Shown here one piece after another: positions 2,470-20,379 of a stretch of 27,229 nt of DNA (within the stretch, counting starts at the first letter, position 1; each line of letters begins with the position of its first letter). The translations under genes were made by a program, and so were the position numbers. The notes beneath the pieces are model-generated. The model made no database searches, was not told the origin of the DNA, and saw only the letters and a list, made by a program, of their open reading frames with translations. Origin of the DNA: a virus; the IMG/VR virus record IMGVR_UViG_3300032265_000118, positions 1 to 27,229 of that record. One strand, written 5' to 3'.

Positions 2470-2622
2470 ATGCCTTTGATTAAATCAATGACACCCAAGG
2501 CAATGAGTAAAAACATTGCCAAGGAGATGGAAGCAGGCAAGCCCCAAAAGCAAGCCGTAGCTATTGCTTATTCTGTGAAGCGGGAAGCTGAGAAAAAAGC
2601 CAAACAAAAGCCTAAAAAGTGA
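2470..2622 (+). CDS. DUF6496-like small basic protein (50 aa)
   Basis: The ATG at 2470 lies two bases after the previous stop and the frame ends TGA at 2620-2622. The start MPLIKSMTPKAMSKNIAKEM and the core GKPQKQAVAIAYSVKR match a very widespread small phage protein that I recall as DUF6496. A lysine-rich C-terminus follows. The stop overlaps the GTG start of the ParB-like gene (GTGA), so the two are coupled. The function is unknown. Confidence 0.7.
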   Translation: MPLIKSMTPKAMSKNIAKEMEAGKPQKQAVAIAYSVKREAEKKAKQKPKK

Positions 2623-3383
2623 AAATCACCCAAAAGAAGGTCACAGAACTAATTCCTTATGTAAAAAACAGCCGCACCCACAGCGATGAGCAAGTGGCAC
2701 AAATAGCGGCAAGCATTAAGGAATTTGGCTGGACTAATCCAATATTGGTGGACGGACAGAACGGCATCATTGCTGGGCATGGTCGCCTTATGGCTGCGCG
2801 TAAGCTGGGTTATATCGAAGTCCCAACTATAGAGCTGGCTGACTTAACTGAAACGCAAAAGAAAGCCTACATCATTGCCGACAATAGGCTGGCGCTTAAT
2901 GCTAGCTGGGACAATGAGATGCTTACCATTGAGCTCAACGAATTGTTGGCAGATGGGTTTGCATTAGATATTCTTGGCTTTGATCAAGCAGACCTAGATG
3001 AGATTTTTTTGCCTGAAGATGCTAAAGATGATAATTTATACACGCAAAAAGTTGACATACCTACTTATGAGCCAGTAGGTGAAAAGCCATCATTAGAAGA
3101 TTTGTATAATGATGAAAAAGCTATGGATTTAATTACTACAATTCAAGAAAGCAAATTAAGCGAGAAGGAAAAGCAATTTTTAATGGCAGCAGCATCACGA
3201 CATATTGTTTTTAACTATGAAAAAATTGCTAATTTTTATGCGCACTCATCAAAACAATGTCAAGAATTAATGGAAGACAGTGCCTTAGTTATTATTGATT
3301 TTAATAAAGCTATCGAAAATGGATTTGTTAAATTAACAGAACAAATTAATGATATGTTTGATGTTGATGTTGAAGATGAATAA
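2619..3383 (+). CDS. ParB/Srx-fold N-terminal domain protein with conserved helical C-terminus (254 aa)
   Basis: It starts with GTG overlapping the upstream TGA. Residues 5-95 are a ParB N-terminal domain: VTELIPYVKNSRTH, then IKEFGWTNPILVDG, then the phosphate-binding IIAGHGR (G53-R56) and AYIIADNRLAL. In many phage and bacterial proteins this domain precedes a DNA methyltransferase; here no methyltransferase motif follows. Instead residues about 140-250 hold another recurring phage module (YEPVGEKPSLEDLYN, then LMAAASRHIVFNY and SALVIIDFNKAIENGFV). ParB-type domains can bind CTP or cut DNA, but which activity this one has cannot be told. Base composition falls sharply within the gene, from about 47% G+C near 2650 to about 28% near 3200, suggesting a chimeric origin. 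Confidence 0.75.
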   Translation: MKITQKKVTELIPYVKNSRTHSDEQVAQIAASIKEFGWTNPILVDGQNGIIAGHGRLMAARKLGYIEVPTIELADLTETQKKAYIIADNRLALNASWDNEMLTIELNELLADGFALDILGFDQADLDEIFLPEDAKDDNLYTQKVDIPTYEPVGEKPSLEDLYNDEKAMDLITTIQESKLSEKEKQFLMAAASRHIVFNYEKIANFYAHSSKQCQELMEDSALVIIDFNKAIENGFVKLTEQINDMFDVDVEDE

Positions 3384-4329
3384 TGAGTATATTTTTGTTA
3401 GGCATGGTCAAACCTATTGGAATAAAAATGGCATTATGCACGGTCAGTTCGACATTCCACTTAACTATACTGGAATTAAGCAAGCACAAAATGTATCAAA
3501 AGAATTAAAGCATGAACATTTTGATTTATGCTTTACCTCAACGTTAAAAAGAGCTAAATCAACTGCATATAACATCTTAATACATCATAAAAATACAAAA
3601 ATTTATTATGATAAAAGATTACAAGAATTAAATAAAGGATTGCTAGAGGGAAAGCATCTTAATAGTGAAAAATTACTTAAAGATGAGAATTATAACTTTA
3701 TAAAAAAATTTAATATTGAAAGTAAAAAGGAATTTTTCACAAGAGTTAAAAGTTTTATAGATGAAGTTGAAAAAAATTATAAAAATAAAAAAATATTAAT
3801 AGTTTCGCATAGTGGAACAATTAAGATGTTGTTTTTTTGCTTTAACTATCCTAAAGTTCCATTACATAAAGCATATTATGATTTGCACATAAAAAACTGT
3901 AAACCTTACCGTCCACAAGAAATTAATTTAAGGAGTGAAAAAATGAAAATTGGATTTTTCCCTATGGTTGCAGATATTTTGCATTCTGGTCATGTTTTGT
4001 CCTTAGAAGAAGCTAAGAAGCATTGTGATTTTTTGATTGTTGGGCTACATTGCAAACCAAACTACAAAGACCCACAGCAATCAATTTATGAACGTTATAT
4101 GCAATTGCGAGCTGTTAAGTGGATTGACGAGGTAATTCCCTATGAAAACATTGATAAGGACTCAGATATTTTTGTTTCATTAGACTACGATGTATATTTT
4201 TTAGGTGAAGATCATAAAAATGATGATTGGGAATTAAAAAATACGATTGAAGTATTAGAAAAAGAAATTGTTTATCTAAAAAGAAAGCATAATTACAGTA
4301 GTAGTAAGATTAAAAATGAATGCAAATAA
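3376..4329 (+). CDS. Fusion of histidine phosphatase and TagD-like cytidylyltransferase (317 aa)
   Basis: I took the ATG at 3376, which overlaps the ParB stop by 8 nt and puts the catalytic motif at residue 9. Residues 1-165 are a histidine-phosphatase (phosphoglycerate-mutase-like) domain: R9-H10-G11, R59, E84 and H145 in VSHSG are all present. Residues 190-317 form a TagD-like nucleotidyltransferase: ILHSGH (HxGH, H203-H206), CDFLIVGLH, YERYMQLRAVKWIDEVIPY, LGEDHK and C-terminal SSSKIK. TagD proteins join CTP to glycerol 3-phosphate, but the substrate here is unknown. The gene is extremely AT-rich; 3661-3720 has 8 G/C in 60. A strong internal ribosome site precedes the second domain. The last 14 nt overlap the glycosyltransferase gene. 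Confidence 0.8.
   Translation: MNNEYIFVRHGQTYWNKNGIMHGQFDIPLNYTGIKQAQNVSKELKHEHFDLCFTSTLKRAKSTAYNILIHHKNTKIYYDKRLQELNKGLLEGKHLNSEKLLKDENYNFIKKFNIESKKEFFTRVKSFIDEVEKNYKNKKILIVSHSGTIKMLFFCFNYPKVPLHKAYYDLHIKNCKPYRPQEINLRSEKMKIGFFPMVADILHSGHVLSLEEAKKHCDFLIVGLHCKPNYKDPQQSIYERYMQLRAVKWIDEVIPYENIDKDSDIFVSLDYDVYFLGEDHKNDDWELKNTIEVLEKEIVYLKRKHNYSSSKIKNECK
3930..3945 (+). promoter_or_regulatory. Internal ribosome-binding site and in-frame start for a free cytidylyltransferase
   Basis: AAGGAG at 3930-3935 lies 7 nt before an in-frame ATG at 3943, close to ideal and better than the site of the full-length gene. Initiation here would give a 128-residue protein (3943-4329) starting MKIGFFPMVADILHSGH, the normal length of a stand-alone TagD-type enzyme (about 130 aa). 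The locus may therefore make both the fusion and the free second domain. Confidence 0.6.
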
Positions 4330-5179
4330 AAAATTGGCTGTGTTTATTCTTTCCCACGGAAGACCTGATAACGTTATTACGTATCAAACTTTGCGAAAAC
4401 AAGGTTACACGGGGAAAATCTATATCATTGTTGATGATGAGGATAAAACATTAAATGAATACAAGGAAAAATACAAAAATGAAATAATTGTCTTTAGCAA
4501 AAGGGCTTATCAAGGCAAATTTGACATAATGGACAATTTTAATGGCAATAAAGTTATTGTTTACGCAAGAAACGCTTGCTACGACATAGCTCGTAAATTG
4601 AACCTTGATTATTTTTTTGAGTATGAAGATGACTATACGCAATTTCAGTATAGATTTGTAGAAAAAGATTCACTTAGAGGCACACAAGTTAAGAATTTAG
4701 ATAAAATTTTAAATCTAATGATTGAATGTTTAGATGGAACAAAAGCAAACACCATAGCATTTGCTCAAGGGGGTGACTTTATTGGAGGAGTAGGGTCTTT
4801 TAAAAACAATACATTTAAAAGAAAAGCAATGAATAGTTTTGTATTCAAGGTAAACAAAGACTCTAAAGATGACATAATTTTTATTGGAAGAATGAATGAC
4901 GATGTAAATACCTATTTGACGCTAGGAAAAACAGGAAAGTTATTTTTTCAAATATCGAACATTTCCCTAGTCCAACTTGCAACACAGTCAAATTCAGGCG
5001 GCAATACAGAAGCCTATAAAGCATACGGCACTTATGTAAAGTCGTTTTATAGCGTTATAACTGCGCCTAATTGCTGCAAGATTGATTTGATGGGTAGAAC
5101 AAATAAAAGACTACATCACAAAATTAACTGGAATTATGCCGTTCCTAAAATTCTTGATGAAAAGTTTAAAAAGCAATAA
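4316..5179 (+). CDS. TET-associated glycosyltransferase (TAGT/GREB1-like) family protein (287 aa)
   Basis: The sequence shows the motif series I associate with the TAGT/GREB1-like glycosyltransferases: SHGRP at 13-17, VDDED at 39-43, YARNACYDIA at 83-92, EYEDDYTQF at 102-110 (the metal-binding DxD-like acids) and GRMNDDVNTY at 191-200. In other phages such enzymes add sugars to 5-hydroxymethylcytosine made by TET-type oxygenases. No TET oxygenase or cytosine-C5 methyltransferase is in this window, so the acceptor here is unproven. It is coupled by a 14-nt overlap to the phosphatase-cytidylyltransferase gene, which hints at shared chemistry such as donor supply. Like that gene it is AT-rich. 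Family assignment is from motif memory, not a search. Confidence 0.75.
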   Translation: MNANKKLAVFILSHGRPDNVITYQTLRKQGYTGKIYIIVDDEDKTLNEYKEKYKNEIIVFSKRAYQGKFDIMDNFNGNKVIVYARNACYDIARKLNLDYFFEYEDDYTQFQYRFVEKDSLRGTQVKNLDKILNLMIECLDGTKANTIAFAQGGDFIGGVGSFKNNTFKRKAMNSFVFKVNKDSKDDIIFIGRMNDDVNTYLTLGKTGKLFFQISNISLVQLATQSNSGGNTEAYKAYGTYVKSFYSVITAPNCCKIDLMGRTNKRLHHKINWNYAVPKILDEKFKKQ

Positions 5180-5182
5180 AAT
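5154..5182 (+). promoter_or_regulatory. Candidate promoter for the packaging/head operon
   Basis: TTGATG at 5154-5159 and TAAAAT at 5177-5182 are separated by exactly 17 bp, matching four of six and five of six consensus bases. Transcription would begin near 5189, just ahead of the small terminase ATG at 5208. The sequence is AT-rich, so chance matches are likely. Confidence 0.35.
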
Positions 5183-5207
5183 AACCTTACACTTCCCCTT
5201 AATAAAG

Positions 5208-5543
5208 ATGCTAGAACACATTCCAACCGATGAACAGCGCCGTTTAGTCGAATCGACAAGCGGTTTGGGTTTACCGCATGAACAGATAGCAATGCTTGTA
5301 GAGATTGACGATAAGACCTTACGCAAGCACTATCGTAGAGAATTGGATATGGGCAAAGCCAAGGCAAATAGTCAAATTGCTAAAACCTTGTATCAAAAAG
5401 CTACGGCTGGCGATACAACAAGTTTAATTTGGTGGACAAAGGCACAAATGCGTTGGTCCGAAACAGTTAAAGCAGAAGTTACAGGCGCAGATGGTGAGCC
5501 ACTTCAAGGCATTCAAGTTACATTTGTAAAGCCAAATGAATGA
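5208..5543 (+). CDS. terS: Terminase small subunit-like protein with HTH (111 aa)
   Basis: I chose the ATG at 5208 because earlier in-frame codons lie inside the glycosyltransferase gene and do not look like family sequence. Residues 1-45 hold a helix-turn-helix (PTDEQRRLVE, then LGLPHEQIAMLVEIDDKTLR and KHYRREL). A helical region follows (QIAKTLYQKATAGDTTSLIWW, WTKAQMRWSET) of the type found in small terminase subunits. It overlaps the large terminase by 8 nt, the usual gene order. It should recognise the packaging site and regulate the large subunit. Upstream only AATAAAG is visible, a weak ribosome site. Confidence 0.75.
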   Translation: MLEHIPTDEQRRLVESTSGLGLPHEQIAMLVEIDDKTLRKHYRRELDMGKAKANSQIAKTLYQKATAGDTTSLIWWTKAQMRWSETVKAEVTGADGEPLQGIQVTFVKPNE

Positions 5544-6810
5544 TGTTGATCGCGCCATTACTAATGCCAAATTTCCTATTAAGCTACAAGGCTTATTTAA
5601 GCCATCGCGATACAAAGTAGCTTATGGCGGGAGGGGTGGCGCTAAATCTTGGGGTATCGCAAGAGCGTTGTTAATTAAAGGCGCTAAAGAACCTTTACGC
5701 ATCTTATGTGCGCGAGAATTTCAAACAAGTATTAGAGATTCAGTCCACAAGCTATTGTGTGACCAGATTGAAGCCCTTGGATTGCTTGGCTTTTATGAAA
5801 TAACCCAAAACAGCATCAGGGGCAAGAACGGCACAGAGTTTGCCTTTGCTGGCCTAAAAAACAATATTGCCAACATTAAATCTTATGAGGGCGTAGACAT
5901 AGCTTGGGTTGAAGAAGCTCAAACCACTAGCCGACTATCGTGGAATATTCTTATCCCTACTATCCGAAAAGAAGGTAGCGAGATATGGATTTCGTTCAAT
6001 CCCGAGTTAGAGACAGACGAAACCTACCAACGGTTTGTTGTAAATCCTCCGCAAGACTGCATCACCATGCGGGTTAACTGGTCAGATAATCCTTGGTTTC
6101 CCGAAACCTTGCGGCTTGAAAAGGATTCTCTTAAAGAACGTGACGAGGAAGCCTATAACCAAGTTTGGGAAGGTTTGTGTCGCCAAACAGTAGATGGGGC
6201 TATCTTTGCCAAAGAAATGCAGCAGGCTGAGAAAGAGGGGCGCATAACCCGTGTGCCTTATGACGCTACCAAGCCAGTTCATGCGGTGTTTGATTTGGGT
6301 TGGTCGGACAGCACAGCTATATGGTTCTTGCAGTTTGTAGGCATGGAGACCAGGCTAATCCGCTACATCGAAGATAGTCAAAAAACCATCAGCTACTACT
6401 TGGCGACCCTGCAAACCTATGGATATGTGTATGACACTATTTGGTTGCCGCATGATGCTGAGAACAAGACATTAGCCGCTGCGGGTAGATCAATTGACGA
6501 TATTGTTAGAGCTGCTGGCTACAAAACCCACATATTGCCCAAAGTGCCAATTGTGGATTCAATCAACGCCGCTAGGACAATATTTCCTAATTGCTGGTTT
6601 GACCGTGAACACGCCGCAGATGGCTTGGCTTGCCTACGTCATTATCGGTATGAGGTTGATCCCACTACGGGACAATTTAGTCGCAACCCATTACACGATC
6701 ATTATTCGCATGGGGCAGATGCATTTCGGTATATTGCCCTTATGATTAAAGAACCCGCCAAACGTAAGAAACAAGCTCAGATTGCCACAGCTGGCAATTG
6801 GATGGGATAA
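5536..6810 (+). CDS. terL: Terminase large subunit (424 aa)
   Basis: This is the ATPase-nuclease motor that pumps DNA into the prohead and cuts it. Walker A is YGGRGGAKSWG (K37, S38), Walker B with catalytic acid is DIAWVEEAQ (121-129), and the coupling motif is SFNP (153-156). The C-terminal RNase H-like nuclease acids are D253 in VFDLGW, D307 in PHDAEN and D395 in SHGADAFRY. At 424 aa it is the size of terminase_3/PBSX-type enzymes and shorter than P22 gp2 (about 499). The start overlaps the small subunit stop by 8 nt. Head-full versus cohesive-end cutting cannot be told from the sequence. Confidence 0.93.
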   Translation: MNDVDRAITNAKFPIKLQGLFKPSRYKVAYGGRGGAKSWGIARALLIKGAKEPLRILCAREFQTSIRDSVHKLLCDQIEALGLLGFYEITQNSIRGKNGTEFAFAGLKNNIANIKSYEGVDIAWVEEAQTTSRLSWNILIPTIRKEGSEIWISFNPELETDETYQRFVVNPPQDCITMRVNWSDNPWFPETLRLEKDSLKERDEEAYNQVWEGLCRQTVDGAIFAKEMQQAEKEGRITRVPYDATKPVHAVFDLGWSDSTAIWFLQFVGMETRLIRYIEDSQKTISYYLATLQTYGYVYDTIWLPHDAENKTLAAAGRSIDDIVRAAGYKTHILPKVPIVDSINAARTIFPNCWFDREHAADGLACLRHYRYEVDPTTGQFSRNPLHDHYSHGADAFRYIALMIKEPAKRKKQAQIATAGNWMG

Positions 6811-20028: not shown

Positions 20029-20379
20029 GTGAATCACGCAGAAATATTTGCAATCCATGAAGGTCAATTTGATGCCGACTTAGGTACAGTTCACCATTTT
20101 TCGGATGGGCTTTATGCTAAACAAATGATGATTCCTGCTGGGTTTGTTGCGGGAACTCATGCCCATAATTACAGTCATTTGAGCATTTTGGCAAAAGGTC
20201 GCATAATTTTGCGTACAGATGAGGGTGCAAAAGAATACACCGCGCCAGCTTGTTTAGAAATAAAATCAGGTGTATATCACACCATTGAGGCTTTGGAAAA
20301 CTGTGAGTGGTTCTGCATTCATGCAACTGACGAAACTGACGCAACTAAGGTTGATGACGTTTTGATACGAAAGGAATAA
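20029..20379 (+). CDS. Cupin-fold protein (116 aa)
   Basis: It begins with GTG, preceded by AAAAAAGGGAT. The first cupin motif is GFVAGTHAHNYSHLSILAKG, with H44 and H46 as HxH, H50 where many cupins have Glu, and G57. The second motif is KSGVYHTIEALENCEWFCIH with H84. The product is a single-domain cupin likely to bind one metal ion. It lies between the long fibre and the ejection genes, only 2 nt before the next ATG, so it is made with late proteins. It could act on sugars or small metabolites or be structural. The substrate cannot be read from the sequence. Confidence 0.8.
   Translation: MNHAEIFAIHEGQFDADLGTVHHFSDGLYAKQMMIPAGFVAGTHAHNYSHLSILAKGRIILRTDEGAKEYTAPACLEIKSGVYHTIEALENCEWFCIHATDETDATKVDDVLIRKE

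Follow-up and report, generated by a model that had tools for sequence, protein, structure and literature searches.

In a 27,229-nucleotide (nt) stretch of viral DNA (IMG/VR record IMGVR_UViG_3300032265_000118, positions 1 to 27,229; hereafter the window), three overlapping open reading frames (ORFs) encoding a ParB-like protein, a histidine phosphatase-cytidylyltransferase fusion and a TAGT glycosyltransferase lie directly upstream of the terminase genes. From comparison of this cassette with its relatives we believe, with moderate confidence, that it is a TET-independent DNA-glycosylation (hypermodification) module seated in a ParB-terminase DNA-modification locus. A sequence-only reading of the window had placed three overlapping genes at 2619-5179, just before the terminase, which ORF positions and Pfam matches bear out, and had reported 8 G/C within 3661-3720, which agrees with our count by eye. 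Profile searches of the three proteins matched ParB_N (just under the cut-off), His_Phos_1, CTP_transf_like and TAGT (PF20691). The five-domain order of ParB_N, TAD (a name coined here for the C-terminal domain of the ParB-like protein), phosphatase, cytidylyltransferase and TAGT was seen in 53 distinct cassettes, that of the window included, with 64-95% identity to the window in the phosphatase, cytidylyltransferase and TAGT; the arrangement is therefore not due to chance.

The slot between ParB_N and the terminase

The relatives of the window's ParB_N domain, of which we analysed the best 80 of at least 588 confirmed viral matches (82-92% identity), keep a terminase small subunit (TerS) of the window's type in 77 of 80 cases and differ in what follows ParB_N. 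According to hidden Markov models (HMMs) built in this analysis, ParB_N is followed by a DNA methyltransferase in 68 of these loci (a group of 63 and a group of 5) and by a Mom-like protein in nine. One further locus carries an FkbM methyltransferase with Tet_JBP (L344), one carries TAD-phosphatase-cytidylyltransferase-TAGT (L345, on the same contig as L007), and one is truncated. Pfam confirmed N6_N4_Mtase in all 10 loci sampled from the 63 and in four of the group of five (L266, L275, L282, L289), and Mom in seven of the nine; ParB_N and the methyltransferase share one frame in 61 of the 63. By blastn, DNA homology with the window stops at 2983/2984 in 71 of the 80 relatives. Seventy loci have a second, separate match on the right; in these, homology resumes between 5171 and 5304, a stretch that reaches from the final bases of TAGT into the first 100 bases of TerS.

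The base composition of the window changes over the same segment. Its G+C content (GC) per 500 bases falls from 0.45 to 0.24-0.32 between approximately 3000 and 5000, and the fall starts within the ParB gene, where its two domains meet. In the 53 distinct phosphatase-cytidylyltransferase cassettes, ParB_N is always richer in GC than TAD (53/53; medians 48.1 vs 36.5), the flanks have medians of 46.2 and 48.6, and downstream DNA is richer than TAGT in 49/49. When third positions only are counted, ParB_N exceeds TAD in 48/53 and the flanking genes exceed TAGT in 37/46; since the contrast is smaller there, amino-acid make-up accounts for part of the drop. As the third-position contrast shrinks yet stays, amino-acid composition as the whole explanation of the AT-rich island is partly ruled out. 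Sequence comparison shows that the DNA running from TAD through TAGT differs as a single AT-rich block. Cassettes that lack the phosphatase have a weaker contrast, with ParB_N above TAD in 64/93.

Beside the 64-95%-identical cassettes, the identity of the large terminase subunit (TerL) runs from 85% down to 30% or no match (some contigs stop short of it). Loci found through TerL mostly have none of the modules sought (58/77; many contigs begin near TerL), and TAGT was present in one of the 77, 5 kb upstream. It seems, from these sequence comparisons, that a mobile block took the place of a DNA methyltransferase. Since the slot partners in relatives are DNA-modifying enzymes, the cassette would replace such enzymes in a ParB-Tls locus; a ParB-like gene, a modifying enzyme and a terminase are adjacent and in order in the window, with TAGT as the inferred DNA-modifying enzyme. 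The sequence-only reading had preferred DNA modification to modification of a surface polysaccharide. The slot, with its methyltransferase, Mom and FkbM plus Tet/JBP occupants, points the same way, and the methyltransferase and Mom comparison rules out surface polysaccharide as the leading explanation.

Two kinds of slot occupant merit a separate description. L344 (5001-7059, + strand) carries the FkbM methyltransferase and Tet_JBP genes in the same slot (ParB_N 84%, TerL 75% identity), a possible FkbM-TET DNA-modification pair; its Tet_JBP matches PF12851 at 35.3 bits against a cut-off of 34.9, and no TAGT was detected in this locus by the HMMs used. Mom-like proteins are found at L286:1962-2669, L306:2942-3679, L337:2177-2872 and L412:4908-5657, and the ParB_N protein of these loci has a C-terminal CPHCGKEFDARQA tail resembling a zinc ribbon.

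The composite ParB-like gene and its TAD domain

On this evidence the ParB gene is composite, with the N-terminal ParB_N domain alone belonging to the phage backbone. The domain scores 26.2 bits in Pfam, 0.1 under the cut-off, is matched by phrog_620 at 7.7e-69, and contains GHGRLMA and ADNR, which we take to be ParB-type motifs. Residues 8-155 of the PADLOC MTase_II model align with residues 1-146 of the ParB-like protein (1.2e-39), and the ParB partition protein model TIGR00180 stays under its cut-off (30.8 vs 58.45 bits), having the N-terminal domain only in common. The earlier description of the product as ParB-like fits its N-terminal part; the C-terminal part is a separate domain linked to TAGT, and both this domain and the swap edge inside the gene had been missed.

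The C-terminal part is, by alignment and prediction, a previously unrecognised conserved helical domain whose constant companion is TAGT. In tblastn searches with the window proteins (140 loci), TAD adjoined TAGT even where the ParB_N part was missing: for example, it forms a gene of its own in Vibrio phage pv27 (139 aa) and in L068, L120 and L066, and in L129 comes first in the cluster, ahead of several TAGT copies. TAGT was located at most 1.5 kb downstream of TAD for 159 of 160 distinct TADs, a set that includes loci found by a fusion or TAGT query; the contig of the sole exception, L156, stops 4 bases past TAD. Scans anchored on TAD alone covered viral DNA (best 80 of at least 583 stretches) and bacterial genomes (38 loci, by title from Bacteroidales, Clostridia, enterobacteria, Veillonella, Alphaproteobacteria, Verrucomicrobia, Kiritimatiellae and others). 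In these, TAGT accompanied TAD in 70 of the 71 viral loci that no other query had reached, in all of the other nine viral stretches, and in 38 of 38 genome loci, and ParB_N lay within 200 nt upstream of TAD in 68 of the 71 and 32 of the 38. Where ParB_N is missing, TAD can be found near DNA polymerase A, a sliding-clamp match below threshold or a primase/DnaB-type helicase (L216, L221, L235), and the TAD-TAGT pair of pv27 is near an annotated helicase and primase.

Fourteen positions of TAD are invariant among 36 aligned sequences (Y2, P9, Y11, L32, F48, L49, R55, H56, A65, Y68, E80, D88, A92 and G96). An AlphaFold (AF2) model predicts a small helical domain with a mean predicted local distance difference test (pLDDT) score of 78.4, in which the core blocks reach 88-97 and the last third is poor. 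No Pfam family matched TAD above its cut-off, nor did the PDB yield a convincing relative: the best profile match (5e-4) was to designed armadillo repeats with no single stretch passing, and the best Foldseek match had an E value of 1.3. Assignment of TAD to a known fold was rejected on these weak matches; given the poor last third of the model, they are no proof of a new fold either. In one contig (the overlapping loci L147, L124 and L041), ParB_N-TAD, phosphatase and cytidylyltransferase are joined in a single 560-aa frame.

The boundaries of the genes and domains are collected in Table 1. The fusion ORF as listed runs from 3349 to 4329 (326 aa), and ATG 3376 is the better start, giving an 8-nt overlap with the ParB stop; the TAGT ORF overlaps that of the fusion by 14 nt. 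The TerS start at 5208 was picked from relatives of 110-117 aa. Elsewhere in the window, a DUF5856 protein (505-867) and a GroES-like co-chaperonin (1349-1606; Cpn10 1.5e-8) are encoded upstream of the cassette, and a small cupin-like protein (20029-20379; 27.1 bits, 0.1 under the cut-off) is found among the structural genes.

Table 1. Positions of the cassette, its domains and the adjoining terminase genes in the window
Feature	Position	Strand	Evidence and remarks
Swapped-in segment	2984..5181, right edge approximate	+	ParB residues 123 onward, fusion, TAGT; blastn breakpoints, GC
ParB-like gene	2619-3383	+	GTG start, 254 aa
ParB_N domain	2619..2983	+	Pfam 8.2e-6; GTG start; GHGRLMA and ADNR
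TAD	3036..3380, core ~3039-3359	+	C-terminal domain of the ParB gene, six predicted helices
Histidine phosphatase and cytidylyltransferase-like fusion	3376..4329	+	317 aa from ATG 3376; Pfam
Histidine phosphatase domain	3379..3912	+	PF00300 1.2e-37; RHG and SHSG motifs
Probable internal ribosome site and start	AAGGAG 3930-3935, ATG 3943-3945	+	Read from sequence
TagD-like cytidylyltransferase domain	3946..4317	+	PF01467; HSGH, RKHNYSSS; best PDB match 1coz
TAGT glycosyltransferase	4316..5179	+	ATG, 287 aa, predicted GT-A fold, D105-D106 and D196; PF20691 5.9e-37
Terminase small subunit (TerS)	5208..5543	+	phrog_309 2.2e-14 using longer ORF 5136-5543
Terminase large subunit (TerL)	5536..6810	+	PF04466 1.4e-38

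TAGT and the predicted donor-making enzymes

The 287-aa protein had been called a TAGT glycosyltransferase, and PF20691 agrees, at 128 bits against a cut-off of 27.5. Its AF2 model (pLDDT 89.6) has a predicted GT-A fold. The best Foldseek match is TarP (1e-6), with TarS also among the top wall-teichoic-acid glycosyltransferase matches, and GalNAc-T2 is matched structurally over 226 residues (VIA Z 13.7, 4.9 Å); by sequence, nothing convincing was found in the PDB. D105/D106 and D196, which are conserved in 100% and 99% of 117 TAGT representatives and are the same letters in the TAGT of phage T6, are presumably the DXD motif, the acidic metal/nucleotide motif of GT-A enzymes. That the acceptor is DNA we infer from the locus.

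Both halves of the fusion belong to well-defined families. At 129.9 bits against a cut-off of 21.7 for PF00300, the N-terminal half is placed in histidine phosphatase branch 1, and 51 of the 54 distinct copies have both RHG and SHSG; in the remaining three the stretch that bears RHG is absent. The C-terminal half matches PF01467 (CTP_transf_like; E values of 3.4e-14 and 1.5e-14, 53.6 bits vs a cut-off of 21) and contains HxGH, in which conservation of H13, G15 and H16 is at least 97% among 59 distinct copies. Its best PDB match is the glycerol-3-phosphate cytidylyltransferase 1coz (8e-13), and its best solved relatives use CTP, a hint at CTP rather than ATP as the substrate. These Pfam and PDB matches agree with the earlier call of a phosphatase fused to a TagD-like nucleotidyltransferase. 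The domain has in common with TagD the fold family, HxGH and this PDB match, but it falls 111 bits under the NCBIfam cut-off, has KWIDEVIPY where TagD has RYVDEVIPE, and is fused to a histidine phosphatase. PADLOC gave no match for the fusion or TAGT. The two domains occupy the same open frame in all 57 distinct loci that have both, with an in-frame ATG at the domain border in 57/57 and a simple Shine-Dalgarno-like word upstream of it in 33/57. As the window has a strong AAGGAG 7 nt before ATG 3943, a free cytidylyltransferase may be produced besides the fusion.

The proposal that the fusion supplies the donor fits the TAGT tree. In a quick, midpoint-rooted tree of 117 sequences (80% representatives; 46 of 114 inner branches unresolved, several tandem copies forming long branches), the window belongs to an inner set of 23 rows within a wider clade (Shimodaira-Hasegawa-like approximate likelihood ratio test, SH-aLRT, 94) in which a cytidylyltransferase is nearby for 29 of 29 rows (26 loci), many of these loci having been found by a fusion or TAGT query. 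Outside the clade, a cytidylyltransferase accompanies TAGT in L165 and L200, where it is visibly different, and in a single diverged copy from L129. On this tree the accessory labels require 19 changes, against 46.5 in shuffles, and none of the 200 shuffles was as low.

The accessory genes vary from cassette to cassette. The phosphatase is missing in L104, L106, L111 and L115; the cytidylyltransferase may stand before TAD (L068), inside a TAGT array (L129) or after TAGT (L165, L200, L230), and six Vibrio phages have TAGT plus a separate cytidylyltransferase. An NAD-dependent epimerase/dehydratase is found beside TAGT in L178, L203 and L222. A UDP-galactopyranose mutase beside TAGT (L216:7204-8289, L187:1824-3254, L247:7243-8391) predicts a galactofuranose donor. 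In nine genome loci (L220, L226, L228, L232, L234, L242, L243, L246, L248), mostly from gut Clostridia, a radical SAM gene directly follows TAGT, and its product may alter the donor or the base. For the epimerase/dehydratase, the mutase and the radical SAM protein, Pfam checks covered three loci of each kind. Tandem arrays of two to five diverged TAGT copies with one TAD (L129, L216, L220, L223, L226, L240, L243) suggest stepwise glycan building or several targets. In phage T6 (L264; MH550421, 22359-22970), an in-frame TAG lies inside the TAGT profile match and the listed ORF begins downstream. Among 291 genomes of the class of G064, a Blautia genome, TAGT had three matches, of which one, G064 itself, was above the cut-off.

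Acceptor, donor and alternative explanations

The sequence-only reading had proposed a TET oxygenase route to the glycosylated base. Its scan for TET/JBP and C5-cytosine methyltransferase, carried out here, found neither in the 27,229 nt of the window, and PF12851 (Tet_JBP) was absent from 44 records, the window included, and 38 genomes, many of the records being fragments. These searches had no positive control inside them, and phages Firecracker and T6, run as controls, gave no match; in a separate search the L344 record was matched at 2.0e-11 and none of eight TAD-TAGT records was. As most contigs are fragments, the absence of TET is not absolute. PF00303, the thymidylate-synthase/hydroxymethylase type, was found in two of 26 records, namely that of pv27, a phage with TAD and TAGT, and that of T6 as control. 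PF00145, the C5 methyltransferase, was also found in two of 26 (the methylase-bearing Streptococcus phage Javan117 and the L128 record, at 35.5 bits, which also carries TAD and TAGT); neither is in the window. None of the three families was detected in Lactobacillus phages c5 and jlb1, halovirus HHTV-2 and NTR1, records titled complete genomes. The window's cassette therefore appears to lie outside the TET/JBP-TAGT pathway, with which it has the glycosyltransferase family in common but from which it differs in that no TET/JBP was found with TAD-TAGT.

We propose the following model. ParB_N, acting perhaps as a nucleotide-dependent clamp, would bind DNA, and TAD would dock TAGT onto the phage DNA so bound. 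The phosphatase would trim a phosphorylated precursor, and the cytidylyltransferase would couple the trimmed product to CTP to form an activated, probably CDP-linked donor. Finally, TAGT would move the activated group onto a base in the DNA of the phage and so protect that DNA from nucleases. Since many cassettes consist of ParB_N-TAD and TAGT without accessory genes, it seems that no other part of the cassette prepares the acceptor, which would most simply be an unmodified base, or a base from an unrecognised route, rather than TET-made hydroxymethylcytosine. A more far-reaching claim, that TAD and TAGT are a two-protein system widespread in phages and archaeal viruses, which glycosylates unmodified bases directly without TET or hydroxymethylase, with interchangeable donor enzymes and a CDP donor in the window's clade, we hold to be possible but doubtful.

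Several points weigh against a TET-independent DNA-glycosylation module as we propose it. The TAGT of T6 acts on a base that is already hydroxymethylated and glucosylated, we know of no precedent in the TAGT family for transfer to a bare base, and a CDP donor would be unusual. The GT-A structural matches are mostly to UDP-sugar enzymes. TIGR01518 is far under its cut-off (54.0 bits for the fusion and 58.0 for the domain alone, vs 165.4), so the cytidylyltransferase may act on another substrate and even with another nucleotide, and distant cytidylyltransferases occur without TAGT (0/13 records, L069-L081). The absence of TET rests mostly on fragmentary contigs, and part of the GC drop comes from amino-acid make-up (53/53 at all positions vs 48/53 at third positions). 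Stand-alone TAD is also found near genes of unclear bearing, with methyltransferase-domain proteins in L213 and L219. Lastly, the viral scans took in the 80 nearest matches, and many loci were reached by searching with the fusion or TAGT, so that linkage is favoured; scans anchored on TAD do not have this bias.

The UDP-sugar matches lead to the alternative that survives best, namely that TAGT uses a host UDP-sugar on DNA and that the fusion makes a CDP-alcohol or like group which decorates the sugar or serves another step. In its favour, 72 of 167 representative loci (some of them short) have TAD, ParB_N and TAGT with no sought accessory family within 3 kb, and the best solved cytidylyltransferase relatives make CDP-alcohols. 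However, the cassette has no second transferase, and the cytidylyltransferase tracks the TAGT phylogeny, as expected if TAGT uses its product; we regard this alternative as unlikely. We think it quite unlikely that TAGT glycosylates 5-hydroxymethylcytosine supplied by a TET/JBP or hydroxymethylase from an unsequenced part of the genome, as the family name and the T6 biochemistry would have it. The window is a 27-kb linear record only, and a Tet_JBP gene does occupy the same slot in L344, but that locus had no TAGT, and the Tet_JBP, PF00303 and PF00145 counts given above argue against such a supply. The conserved Y[ST] pair in the N-terminal stretch of TAD, invariant TAD residues within a low-confidence, perhaps flexible stretch, polypeptide GalNAc-transferases among the GT-A matches and the structural genes adjoining the module would all suit glycosylation of protein, either virion proteins or TAD itself; we consider this improbable in view of DNA-modifying slot partners, the fusion to ParB_N and the replication-gene contexts. 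Surface polysaccharide or teichoic-acid-type modification, suggested by the TagD homology and by TarP and TarS, is very improbable given that no membrane or flippase family turned up among the matches of the three genes, that ParB_N fusion is frequent, and that the TAD-TAGT pair is found in halovirus HHTV-2 as well as in Gram-positive and Gram-negative hosts.

The DNA-glycosylation module that we favour differs from the systems to which it is related. For the ParB-Tls locus, the proposal is that ParB guides the modification of DNA while it is being packaged (Iyer et al., 2013, as reported in PMC6536676). As described there, the locus has, like the window, a ParB-like gene, a DNA-modifying enzyme and the terminase in order; ParB_N is often fused to an m6A/m4C methyltransferase, whereas the window instead has TAD, TAGT and a probable donor-making fusion. 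The T-even TAGT of phage T6 (PHROG 842 label beta-glucosyl-HMC-alpha-glucosyltransferase), which likely adds a second glucose on hydroxymethylcytosine in DNA according to a 2026 paper (PMC13390438), shares PF20691, the acidic residues and a probable DNA acceptor with that of the window. T6 differs in having its own PF00303 genes and a separate alpha-glucosyltransferase (same source), and in contrast to the T6 TAGT, those in our set as a rule have TAD as a partner; with the window TAGT as tblastn query, no T-even phage was found at 1e-5. Phage nucleotidyltransferases thought to feed DNA glycosylation in RB69 and Thanatos (PMC6024577 and PMC12838424) resemble the window's arrangement, but they are other proteins, for which UDP donors are proposed or shown; in the same sources, Thanatos cytosine carries a deoxypentose, reportedly without a hydroxymethyl link. 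Our literature search, outside which Iyer et al., 2013 itself lay, found no paper on ParB-TAGT pairs or TAD.

The TAGT family, the ParB-Tls type of locus and the donor idea are already known. What is new is the constant TAD partner, the setting in which no TET was detected, seen in phages as well as in a halovirus, and the phosphatase-cytidylyltransferase fusion. TAGT has been described as a finisher of bases made by TET or by hydroxymethylase. If neither is needed, the module would be a novel route to glycosylated DNA in phages of several bacterial phyla and in a halovirus, one that is testable in isolates with sequenced genomes and for which accessory enzymes lend several cassettes a predicted donor that can be checked.

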